64,000 nt of DNA from Cytospora piceicola (taxonomy: Eukaryota > Ascomycota > Sordariomycetes > Diaporthales > Cytosporaceae), in contig JALQBC010000013.1 in the NCBI GenBank assembly GCA_023375675.1, forward strand, positions 806,001-870,000. Direction: 5' to 3'. This document shows positions 12,789-55,800 of the stretch, one piece after another (position 1 is the first letter of the stretch; the number at the start of each line of letters is the position of its first letter). The notes beneath the pieces are model-generated. The model made no database searches and was not told the origin of the DNA. It worked only from the letters and a program-made list of their open reading frames with translations. The position numbers were made by a program, and so were the translations under genes.

Positions 12789-14700
12789 TCATGTCCTCTT
12801 TCGGGTGAACATCATGAGGAGCAATATGACCGCGGAACAGGACATGAGAAGCAGAATGGAAGAATCGTAGCCATCGAGCCGACCGCAGCCGATTGTGCAA
12901 TAACCTGCAGCTCCACCGAGGTGCTGGGGAGAGGAAGAGAAGAGCATAAGTAATAGTGTTCCAAAAATTGAGAGATGCAATGCTGCAGACGCATGCTTCA
13001 CGGGGAAAGAAGGGGAAAACGCTGGCGGGGGGAAAGGGGAACCTCTGTCCAGTTGCTTACAGTTGTGCCAAGTTCCATATCCCACACGTCTGTGGTGCCC
13101 AAAATTGTGCCATCTGATGCCAGCGCATTTGCGACAAGATACATAGCCTCGGTCTTGAGGGGAACGACCGTCTCGTATCCTTCCTTTTTCACATTTTGCG
13201 TGAAAGTGATGTTTTCTTTCCGGTTCCCCTCCATCTACGTTGGCGAAACGAAGTTAGCCCCACGCGATATGGACAACGCTAAGCGTAGAAGTTGGGATTC
13301 AAACTTACAATGTCCCATGAGTGCACCTCGGTCGCGCCATTCCAGCTCACATACGCAAAGTTCTCATCGCCTGCGATGCTTGGTTTCCATGTCGGATAGG
13401 CGGTCCAGTCCATCGACCATGCTCGGTATACCGGCTGCGTGTTTGATGGCCCGTCGAACCACGGGCCCACCATAACGTCCAAGACGATTTCGCCGTCCTC
13501 GGTATATTCAGTAATGACCGGTGTGGTTCCCCAGCTTACGAGAACGTTGCCGTTGTCCAGCTTCTGGAACCCACCCATTGCCCAAGCCGCGATGTTCATA
13601 GGGTGGTAGTACTCGTGCACTATCTCGGCGGTCATATTTTCGGTATCGATCCGTAGGTGAAGACCTCTGGAGCAGCCCTCAGTGCAACCGGGAGAGGGGT
13701 TGGCCGGCTCCAGATCGTGATTGTCGAACAAGGTGATCTCGGTGAGGTCGTCGTTTATGAATCGCGCCGTGTGTTGGAAACCAAAGTTGGTGGCATTGCC
13801 GCCACTCAGATCCGTGAACTGGTTGTTCTTACCACCAAGCTGCCATATGATGGAGCCGTCCTTGCCACTGATGTATACCAGTGACTTGATGCGGCGCCCG
13901 GATACCAAGAAGTTGCCCTCATGCGTCTTTTGCATGCTATTAATATGGAAGAAATCCCAGCCGACCTCCTCGGTGGGCGCGCCATAATCGTTTGGGCCCC
14001 AGTAGACCTCGGTCTCGTTGAGGTCGAAATGATGACTGGCGCGCCAGAGGAACTTGAGCTCGCCTGTCGCAATGTCGATCTCCTCGAAGATGCTGTCCAG
14101 GAGCAGACCGTCCTCGGGACCGCCGCCGGGTGCATTGGTCATATCATAGGGAATTCTCTCGTAGGCCGTGATCAGGGCGGTCCCATCTTCGGTCAGTTGG
14201 CACTCGTGGGAATCAGCCAGGGTGTTGATCCTTTGGGTCGAGATGTTGTAGACTTGCTGGTAGGACGAGTCGTACAGCAAGCATTCGCCCAAGCCATGCC
14301 CTCTATAGTCCCGACCTTCCCAGAACGTGAAATATGGCAGGCCATTGTACATTTGTATCCTTGGGTTGTTCGCTGAGGCCCATTTTGGGTCGCCATAGAC
14401 CATGCTGAGATCCTTGGTATCGACGATGAAGGGGGTAGCTCCTTGGTCTCCAGCTACCGAGGACAGGAATAGATATTTGCCCAAGCCGGACTTTTCTGGG
14501 TGCCATTGGTTGACTTGGAACAGGAGGCCCAGTGTGTCTGTTGATTTATACGACTGGTTAGGATGTACTCCATAATCGCCCAGGTTGTATGCCTGGTAAT
14601 CGGTCACATACGCCTCTGGGCGTTCCTCGGCGGCGACGAGACCAGCTCCGGTGGCTAAGAAGCCGAGAAGGACGGCGGGAAGGCGGGCAGAGGAATGCAT
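12789..14700 (-). CDS. fungal arylsulfotransferase (ASST-type), secreted with C-terminal membrane anchor
   Basis: Three exons on the minus strand: 13309-14700, 13061-13234 and 12789-12923. The introns of 74 and 137 nt are both GT-AG and phase 0; total 566 residues. The start at 14700 is the first ATG; residues 1-25 are a signal peptide (Leu/Ala/Gly-rich core ending LVAA). The body matches the fungal arylsulfotransferase family: a beta-propeller-like series with conserved WHPE, DSHE, HINS, QHTARF and NHD clusters, and many N-glycosylation sites. Exon 3 adds a Cys-containing segment and a C-terminal hydrophobic helix followed by RKR, so the mature protein is probably membrane-anchored facing outward. 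Known: ASST enzymes transfer sulfate between phenolic compounds without PAPS. Substrate here is unknown. Stopping at exon 1 would lose the TM tail; the two downstream exons are strongly supported by frame continuity. Confidence 0.87.
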
Positions 14701-52635: not shown

Positions 52636-52642
52636 AAAAAAA
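52636..52642 (-). terminator. RNA polymerase III terminator of tRNA-Pro
   Basis: Seven consecutive T on the minus strand, 11 nt downstream of the tRNA discriminator base. This is the standard Pol III stop signal and supports the tRNA locus being an active Pol III gene. Confidence 0.8.
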
Positions 52643-52665
52643 GAAGTTGTTGTGGGTCTGGCCGG

Positions 52666-52675
52666 GGATTGAACC
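52666..52675 (-). promoter_or_regulatory. internal B box of tRNA-Pro
   Basis: GGTTCAATCC matches the Pol III B-box consensus GGTTCGANTCC with one change. It begins two bases after the 59-nt insert, so the insert leaves the B box intact but lengthens the A-box to B-box distance by 75 nt in total. Confidence 0.8.
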
Positions 52676-52782
52676 CGCTGTTATATTGTTAGATATTGTT
52701 GCTCGGAATTGTATTTGAACATAGGATGCTACTCACGGACCTCGCGCAATGAACTCAGAGTACACCCTAAGCGCGAATCATA

Positions 52783-52793
52783 CCACTAGACCA
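52783..52793 (-). promoter_or_regulatory. internal A box of tRNA-Pro
   Basis: TGGTCTAGTGG matches the A-box consensus TRGCNNAGTNGG closely and is positioned normally at tRNA nucleotides 8-18. Confidence 0.8.
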
Positions 52794-52800
52794 CCAGACC

Positions 52801-55800
52801 TAGGATTGTTGAAAAGCGATCCCGGGTGGAGTTTATATTGCAAGTCTCACATGACTCAGTCTGCGATACCACCTTAGGGTAGTCTCCTCGTTGGCAGTCC
52901 GTATGATTTAATCACCGTAATAGTCGGTTTCTTGTAGCTTACAGAATGTTTTCCAGAAGCAGAATCGTCTTGTTTGCGGGCCCGGACCACATTGTGCGTC
53001 GATGCAGGTTGGGTCAACGGAAAAGTTGAAACATAGTTCCGGGTAATGTCATAACGCTGGTAAGGGAGACGTTCTGATCAAAATGCTAGGACAATAGGTG
53101 GACCTCGTGGATGAACTACCATCTACTAGTTCATCCACACTTGTACATCCATAATAAACTATCTAGCACGCTGTGTAAGCTAAAGTTGATATGGATACCG
53201 CCTGGGAGTCTAGCGGATATATCGACCACCCCTTGCGTAGAAGACGGTTTGAACCTGTCCTTCTTGAATGGTGCAGACGAAGATGTGCAAACGAAATTCA
53301 TCAATATTTTGTTCAAAATCAATGCTTACCATGAGCTATTGTAGTTTACGTATTAATCCTGTTCAGAGTGTACGTCAGTCAACTGCTATCTTTAACGCGG
53401 TTACAGCTCACAACAGTTATTCGGGCAGTTTACTCACCATTCAGTGGCAATGACAGGAACGAGCTCTTCTTGTCGCCGACTATGTCGAACACTCGGCATA
53501 AACGATACGGCCGCAGCTCTCAGAATCCAAGTCATTGCTGCTGGTCTTCAAATTTCTGGCCGCGGTATTCGCAATGGGTCCAGTGTGACGAGTATTAGGT
53601 AGCGTAACGTGTCGTCACTGTTCGGACATATCGTGTACGAGAATACCATGACAACCTTATCTATTTGGGGTACGTTAAAGACAGCCATGTTGAGCAGGTT
53701 AGATACGAATCTCATGGCCTGGAATCTTGAGGTAGATTGACAGTAGTCTTTCGTGGATGATCATATATCAATAAGTAACGGATTCTTTCCCGTGCTAGCA
53801 GTCAGGAGTAGGATCATGCATGAAGTCGGATCTAATTCGTCTGAGGAAGATCTTGAAATCACACGTATGCGTCATATGGCATGTAACCAGTTGACCCAGG
53901 CCAGGAGTTTTCAACTGCCTTTCGGGGTCAGATATGCCGACAGGGAGGGCCAACCCCAACCTGCTCACCGAGAAAAGCTACATATTCACGTGCCCTAGCA
54001 TTTGTGTGACCGAGAGGTCGTGCTGAACCTATTGGCTCCCGTCCAACGTCGGTGGCTGGATTTCTGCACTAGTACAAGTACAAGAAGGAATCGCTTTGTA
54101 TGTGTTACACCACCAAAAGCAGTGACGGTCCATGCCAGGACTTCAAATATCCAACAATTCCCACGTCGACGGGTCTGAAAACCCAGACAGTCCGTCGTAT
54201 CACCGCAAAACCTTGACTTTCCACTCTATATTTGGGCAGTTGACCGGTTCGTATCGTGCCGCGCTCACGGAAGCTGCTGCATCACTGGCTTCAGGTGAGA
54301 GTAACAATGCTACGGGTGAACGACGGGCAGCTGTCTCAGACCGAAGTATGAATGTCGCCGTCTTCCACCCAGGGTGACTATTACATACCGCCAAGCACTG
54401 CTGTAAATGCTTATTATTCGCAGATAGTTGCAGGCCAGCACGAAGCTTTCGACGCATCTGCCCCTCCCAGTTCGTGGCCGAAGATCGCAATACATGAGAC
54501 CACGACCAGTGATTTAGAGCAGTCGTATCAGCTTATGTTTCTGGCAGCGTGCTAGAACTGCAAGTTATCGACTTGGCTCCTCTCTATCGACCGGTTCTAG
54601 GAAGCTCATCAAATCTTGGTATCCTCGTGAGTGCAGTCACATGAAATCACCTATTTTATGGTGGAACTTTCCATCCTGGCTGGGATTCAGCATTGCTAAT
54701 TGCGCAAGTTACCAGGGACTTTGTGGAAAAATCGTGGGCAGCGCCTATCCCCAGGAAGAGAAATCCCAGCAAGGCTTTTTTTATGGTAACATTTCTCCCC
54801 ATTGGAAGATTGCTCGCTCGAGGAGGAAAACTCAGCACCGCATTCGCGTTCATTCCGCAGCTGTCTCTTACCCAAAGCGCCTAAACCTTTGCACCCAATG
54901 GCCATAAGGATTGGTGCAGAGGAAGCAATAGACAGTGAACGGCCTCCACAAAGCCTTTGGTGCAGGGAACTCACCTTCCTCGATCGTCAAACTTGACGTG
55001 TTGCGGAACTTCAAGCCTGGAATAGTGGTGGCATCTTCTGTTTGGGTGAGTACCGTAACAGACAGATGGAACGACATCTACCATTACGGCTCACTTGGAG
55101 CAAACCATACCATAACTCTCTATCGCCCACAGCGACGCTGGGAAGAACTACGCATATTCACCATCACTCACTCGAAGCACCATCAGATCCAAGACCGACA
55201 CGAGCAGAGATTTTGTTGGGGAACGAACTATTATTACCCTGTCATCCACGGCAGCCGCTGCCTAAGGCGAGATCATGCCGATCAAGGCGCGCTACGACTT
55301 TTCAACTGCTGACACTTCTTTTGCGAACCGGTGGTAACCTAATCGGATTTTAAAATCTTCCACCGTTCCAATGATTGAAATAGTTCCACAGAAGTCAGCT
55401 TCTGAGCCGGTTGGAAATGCGTCTCTAGATGAGAGTGCCTACCATGCTCTTGTGCCAGCCTGGAACAACGATAGCGCATATTGCCATAAATAGAGCTCGG
55501 TATCAACAGCCTACTACCGCGACCGATGAGCTTTGCATGACCTTTCAGCGGTGCGTTGTGCTTCCCTGTGCTAATCGCAAAAGGGAGTGTTTATTGAATG
55601 ACTTCCAGTAAACGACTGGCTGAAAATCCGTTCTTCCGACTACTAAACATTTGGCCAGTCAGTTTAGTAGGGTACCGGTATTCACACAAGTTTCTGCCTA
55701 TCGATTTGGCATTACTTACGGTATCTCTTGCTGCAACGTGAAAGCGTCTGATTTCAGATGTTTGCTACTCGAAGGAAAGCCTTACTGTGACTATTTACGG

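Follow-up and report, generated by a model that had tools for sequence, protein, structure and literature searches.

Results

Six tRNA-Pro genes carry a GT-AG insert in the T arm

Six of the ten tRNA-Pro genes found in the genome of Cytospora piceicola are interrupted, at the same base of the T arm, by a 59-nt insert which we take, with a probability of roughly 0.8, to be a real U2-type (GT-AG) spliceosomal intron in functional genes. This reading is built on the anatomy of the insert, its copy number, its pattern of conservation, its fit to the coding introns of the same genome and the absence of a bulge-helix-bulge motif at its ends; from these we infer transcription, splicing and charging. 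One of the six genes lies in the window (the whole 64,000-nt stretch of DNA that was analysed), which is part of contig C7 of a 43.6-Mb genome in 99 contigs. The features of this gene are as follows.

52833..52837, minus strand: TATAA at -37, upstream of the gene; TATA-like sequences are found at four of the six insert-bearing genes
52654..52800, minus strand: tRNA-Pro(AGG) gene with two introns, the one in the T arm putative; 147 nt, with the discriminator C at 52654
52782..52793, minus strand: A box region, TGGTCTAGTGGT, used in the A-box search pattern
52749..52764, minus strand: anticodon-loop intron of the ordinary type, 16 nt, after base 37
52737..52748, minus strand: middle exon, TGCGCGAGGTCC, its last base being T-stem base 49
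52678..52736, minus strand: GT-AG insert in the T arm, 59 nt, between bases 49 and 50
52731..52736, minus strand: 5' splice-site-like GTGAGT (GTRNGT in all six inserts)
52713..52720, minus strand: B-box-like GTTCAAAT within the putative intron
52688..52692, minus strand: branch-like CTAAC with the branch A at 52689 (TCTAAC in all six inserts)
52678..52682, minus strand: 3' splice-site-like AACAG (AACAG in five inserts, TATAG in one)
52654..52677, minus strand: 3' exon, comprising the remainder of the T arm, the 3' strand of the acceptor stem and the discriminator C
52666..52675, minus strand: exonic B box GGTTCAATCC, within the 3' exon
52636..52642, minus strand: terminator-like run of seven T residues, 11 nt downstream of the gene

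The insert starts with GTGAGT and ends with TCTAACAATATAACAG. A sequence-only reading of this DNA had described a complete tRNA-Pro(AGG) gene with a 16-nt anticodon-loop intron, a 59-nt GTGAGT...CTAAC...AACAG insert and a T7 terminator, and all of these were recovered at the same positions on the minus strand. The same reading held that only excision exactly at GT and AG rebuilds the T stem. Indeed, this cut yields five T-stem pairs, and cuts displaced by -4 to +4 yield four at most; the exon context being identical in all six genes, this is one test and not six. Once the insert is removed, ARAGORN calls tRNA-Pro(AGG) with an i(37,16) intron (52764-52749). The call is unchanged when the cut is shifted by up to three bases; in view of this tolerance, seen with the AGG genes, it is the T stem and not the program that marks the exact cut. 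Sequences with the three signals are rare by chance: none of 400,000 random 59-mers of the same composition combined GTRNGT, CTRAC near the end and YAG.

Distribution of the insert within the tRNA-Pro family

The tRNA-Pro set was assembled from a search with the whole gene and a scan of the genome for the A box. Allowing up to three mismatches, the scan returned 44 matches (27 in the reversed control); all ten with no or one mismatch are tRNA-Pro genes, and 20 of the 34 others were given a locus. The insert is found in four of five AGG genes, two of three CGG genes and neither of the two TGG genes:

AGG, with insert: C7 (window), C1:939654, C1:939931 and C36:111555
CGG, with insert: C90:658990 and C1:75298
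Without insert: AGG C20:190610; TGG on C9 and C32; CGG-type C1:2122561

Thus, the comparison with other tRNA-Pro genes of the genome that the sequence-only reading had called for added five carriers of the insert. That reading had also held that several intact AGG genes elsewhere would mark the window copy as a pseudogene; only one was found. A query with the mature sequence retrieved this intact gene and matched the four interrupted AGG genes over their 5' portions; the intact gene has a C in the variable loop where the interrupted genes have a T. The CGG-type gene at C1:2122561 (plus strand) is unlike the other Pro genes in that its acceptor stem differs (GGGCAAT) and its anticodon intron is 28 nt long. 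Two interrupted AGG genes form a tandem pair (C1:939662-940089), separated by about 134 bp; their inserts have 7 mismatches in 59 positions.

All six inserts are 59 nt long and conform to GTRNGT...TCTAAC...YAG, with the donor, the AG acceptor and the branch consensus expected of spliceosomal introns, the last at the distance usual in this genome. An A box, a B box and a T-run terminator are present in all six genes, the T runs being of 5 to 7 residues. With both introns out the cloverleaf is complete: after removal of the T-arm insert, ARAGORN gives tRNA-Pro for five of the six, the gene on C36 being called Phe(aaa) through the use of another loop. As they stand, none of the six is called by ARAGORN, and all are absent from the 58 matches of the Rfam tRNA model, in a census in which 63 of 1659 candidates were scored; the window gene, tested individually in its unspliced form, was detected neither by ARAGORN nor by Rfam at gathering scores or at E<=1.

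Some side observations concern other parts of the window and of the genome. ARAGORN named a tRNA-Ser(act) at C57:598078 and a tRNA-Asn(att) at C82:64643, the latter near a contig end; to our knowledge, these anticodons are not expected in a fungal nucleus. The 135-kb contig C65, dense in tRNA genes including ones read as (tca), is probably the mitochondrial genome. The window also encodes an arylsulfotransferase-like protein (13282-14700), whose best matches among named organisms are in Diaporthe amygdali (84%), Coniella (75%) and Discula (70%), with up to 89% in a few sequences lacking a name; judged by this one gene, the genome would probably belong to the Diaporthales.

Searches for the insert at other sites

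No copies of the insert were found at other genomic sites: at least seven matching pieces were obtained (E<=10, five candidates scored), all of them in tRNA-Pro genes including that of the window. As judged from this distribution, the insert is not a recently dispersed element or introner. Since the sixth interrupted gene was itself too diverged to be listed, diverged copies could exist elsewhere.

The genome was also surveyed for other tRNA genes with inserts at the T-arm position and a CTAAC or CTGAC branch motif. The pattern CTAAC..CAG ahead of GGTTCAA had nine matches, five of them Pro genes (16 in the reversed control); ahead of GGTTCGA it had four (11 in the reversed control), with no tRNA among them. 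A looser pattern (CTAAC-N-AG-N-B box) had 14 matches against 23 in the reversed control, namely six Pro genes, a coincidence at the anticodon loop of a tRNA-Val and seven others. The pattern is therefore not enriched genome-wide, and the evidence is carried by the tRNA context. The CTGAC version had 37 matches (22 in the control), nine of which fall in tRNA-Arg or tRNA-Asn genes already listed. Among the 27 loci tested further (20 of the 28 other CTGAC matches and the seven CTAAC ones) there was no tRNA with a T-arm insert, two being tRNA-Ala and tRNA-Lys genes. Hence the genome search for similar inserts, another proposal of the sequence-only reading, was positive for the six tRNA-Pro genes, that of the window included, and negative for other tRNAs among the matches tested. 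Scans of viral, bacterial and archaeal contig collections with the insert pattern gave no match. The SRP RNA gene was matched end to end in 274 nt, without a large insert.

Divergent inserts with conserved splice signals and exons

Conservation was measured among paralogs of one genome, at 11 signal positions (GT..GT, CTAAC and AG) picked with the spliceosomal consensus already known. None of these positions differs in the eight AGG-CGG pairs of inserts, against 23-34 of 48 non-signal positions in ungapped alignments (Fisher p <=0.0021) and 17-26 of 52-54 in gapped ones (p 0.0019-0.0217); as the six genes share ancestry, these comparisons are not independent tests. The inserts of the two CGG genes likewise differ at 0 of 11 signal positions and elsewhere at 18 of 48 without gaps (p 0.011) or 16 of 49 with gaps (p 0.022), and their mature bases are identical (73 of 73 compared). 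The AGG inserts resemble one another too closely for the contrast to reach significance within that group (p 0.2-0.5). Within an isoacceptor, the non-signal positions of the inserts show up to 18 differences in 48, and the mature sequences 0-1 in 73; the single mature difference is at the boundary of the anticodon intron and hinges on the placing of that boundary. In gapped alignments, the 60-nt upstream flanks resemble one another by 45-58%, no better than shuffles. Downstream flanks reach 49-71%; 4 of 15 pairs score above every one of 100 shuffles, which T-rich trailers common to the genes probably explain. On this comparison of sequences, conserved exons and splice signals amid a freer remainder are what is expected of a functional spliceosomal intron in a functional gene.

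These data bear on the view that the six genes are pseudogenes, in which an old insertion was never removed and multiplied along with the gene. Intact genes do exist for AGG (C20) and CGG (the C1:2122561 type), as well as two for TGG, and the presence of one intact gene each for AGG and CGG means that the interrupted ones could be dispensable. Moreover, according to a passage of Yoshihisa (2014; PMC4090602), eukaryotic tRNA genes with short D- or T-arm insertions are for the most part regarded as pseudogenes. Decay, however, does not readily account for mature sequences that, within an isoacceptor, stay within one base of each other while inserts drift and upstream flanks are unrelated, nor for T runs behind six of six genes and invariant splice signals, and it would make four of the five AGG genes found dead. 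We consider it unlikely.

The inserts resemble coding introns and lack a bulge-helix-bulge

Coding introns for comparison were located by kinase homology; 18 were picked from 20 regions, two of which gave none. Picks were ranked by their donor and acceptor letters; length and branch motif are therefore the only properties unaffected by the selection, and the GTAAGT-like donors of the set are in part circular. The 18 introns have a median length of 60 nt (47-111, the 111-nt pick being doubtful yet counted). Fifteen contain CTRAY (shuffles predict 2.2), and their branch A is situated 7-24 nt before the end. The tRNA inserts, at 59 nt and with the branch A 12 nt from the end, fall within both ranges, and ATCTAACAA occurs in two kinase introns and in three of the four AGG inserts. 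At the tRNA inserts the donor follows an exonic C; for the coding introns this base is a G or an A in 16 cases out of 18. The kinase set was preferred to coding introns defined ab initio since the latter showed a weak contrast (branch motif behind 17 of 31 donors and 9 of 33 in the control). Thus, the inserts share length, branch motif and branch distance with spliceosomal introns of ascomycete protein-coding genes, as represented by these 18, which in contrast reside in mRNAs.

The insert could instead be cut out by the tRNA splicing endonuclease, as is thought of non-canonical introns in Cyanidioschyzon merolae and archaea. The tRNA-Pro gene already has one intron of the endonuclease type, and non-canonical introns in D and T arms are on record for C. 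merolae, archaea and nucleomorphs in a passage of PMC4090602, which says of the nucleomorph ones that the removal mechanism is unknown. In C. merolae, cryptophyte nucleomorphs and archaea, as here, there are tRNA genes with an interruption in the T arm, and some of them carry two or more introns. However, the cases from C. merolae and archaea rest on bulge-helix-bulge motifs, according to portions of PMC4090602 and PMC3978253, whereas the tRNA-Pro insert has spliceosomal signals in place of such a motif. At the T-arm boundaries, no 4-bp helix bordered by a 3-nt bulge at each splice site was found: the central helix has two of four pairs in five genes and three of four in one, a pairing equalled by 37.6-89.2% of shuffled inserts. 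Removal by the endonuclease would also leave unexplained why GTRNGT, TCTAAC and AG are held amid drift, and we regard it as quite improbable.

A B-box-like motif within the insert

The TFIIIC B box has a GGTTCGANTCC-like consensus. Its core, GTTCRA, is found about 17 nt from the start of all six tRNA inserts and in one U6 intron (see below), and in none of the 18 coding introns; the remainder of the consensus is not kept in the inserts. The A box lies 73-93 bp from this motif and 119-138 bp from the exonic B box. In six other intron-bearing tRNA genes measured, the A and B boxes are 70-98 bp apart, suggesting that the intron may supply a better-spaced B box. It seems conceivable, and we propose it tentatively, that the intronic GTTCRA serves as an extra B box for TFIIIC, restoring the usual spacing.

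The same motif might suggest that the insert is retained in a stable RNA with another role, as a promoter element or as a long variable region. Nearly the whole T arm lies 3' of the insert, so that four of the five T-stem pairs can form in spite of it. Yet, taken by itself, the insert is predicted to fold no better than the shuffle mean in five of six cases (for CGG_C1c, -9.3 versus -6.2), and retention does not predict conserved splice signals. It is a very improbable explanation.

U6 genes as a second case of GT-AG introns in a Pol III-type gene

Two U6 genes were found in the genome:

C68:682185-682353, minus strand: U6 gene interrupted by two introns of the GT-AG type (53 and 60 nt), whose branch-like motifs are ACTAAT and CTGAC
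C63:24720-24818, minus strand: uninterrupted U6 gene; the base just after ACAGAGA departs from the family consensus

U6 would thus be a second Pol III-type gene in this genome with such introns. In the C68 gene, TATAA lies at about -28; intron 1 contains an A-box-like motif (+21), and intron 2 a match to the B box, GTTCAAGTC (+121). For the C63 gene, no TATA was found in the 60 nt upstream, nor a B match within 500 nt. As C63 has no visible promoter elements, C68 is possibly the main U6 gene; C63 is possibly a copy made from spliced U6 RNA. The best local alignments between the tRNA inserts and U6 intron 2 centre on the B-box-like motif. Common descent of the two is too weakly indicated to be claimed, the score being reached by 0.1-6.3% of 1000 shuffles (0.4-13.1% when the interior only is aligned). 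No similarity to U6 intron 1 was seen (17-72% of shuffles reach the score).

Spliceosomal introns mostly occur in Pol II transcripts, which raises the notion that the insert is removed only from a Pol II transcript reading through the tRNA gene; this can hardly be credited, as the same intron and T runs of the Pol III type persist at six loci whose upstream flanks are unrelated, and as the U6 transcript of Schizosaccharomyces pombe, a Pol III product, has its mRNA-type intron spliced out according to a passage of PMC10484740. A Schizosaccharomyces U6 gene has a B-box match inside its intron, to go by the title of Frendewey et al. (1990), cited there. Action of the spliceosome on a Pol III transcript is therefore not without precedent in print and, from the U6 sequence found here, probably occurs in C. 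piceicola too.

Discussion

The sequence-only reading had proposed that one Pol III-type gene contains a spliceosomal intron alongside a tRNA intron of the ordinary kind. Six paralogs sharing the site, exons and signals held amid drift, the fit to coding introns and the GT-AG introns of U6 all argue for this proposal. The spliceosomal intron would be removed as follows. Pol III would produce a pre-tRNA containing both interruptions; the spliceosome would recognise GTRNGT, TCTAAC and YAG and, by joining bases 49 and 50, would complete the T stem; the anticodon intron would be removed separately by the tRNA endonuclease and ligase. In the literature searched, mainly open-licence and represented by titles and abstract openings among the matches listed, no tRNA gene was described as having a spliceosomal intron.

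The closest parallel is provided by the U6 snRNA introns of Schizosaccharomyces and others, likewise GT-AG introns in a stable RNA transcribed by Pol III. Unlike U6, the tRNA-Pro host also has an endonuclease-type intron, and two isoacceptors and six copies are involved. The U6 intron, which lies near catalytic bases, has been ascribed to reverse splicing for that reason (a passage of PMC10484740), an argument inapplicable to a tRNA. A broader and rather speculative scheme, which we regard as somewhat doubtful, is that Pol III genes of this fungal lineage carry spliceosomal introns holding part of their own promoter: a second B box in the T-arm intron of tRNA-Pro, an A-box-like motif and a B box in the introns of U6. 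Such introns would be kept since their loss weakens transcription, and reverse splicing may have carried them from one Pol III gene to another; the tRNA would then need both the spliceosome and the tRNA endonuclease.

On the practical side, the majority of genes for an isoacceptor can escape tRNA finders, as the six described here escaped ARAGORN and, among the candidates scored, the Rfam tRNA model. Nuclear tRNA introns are taken to be the business of the endonuclease, and mRNA introns that of the spliceosome; if the present reading is true, a tRNA needing both would make the supply of a proline tRNA dependent on spliceosome activity. The spliceosome would then be able to process a pre-tRNA. 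These genes would also offer a natural system for asking how spliceosomal introns enter, and persist in, genes transcribed by Pol III.
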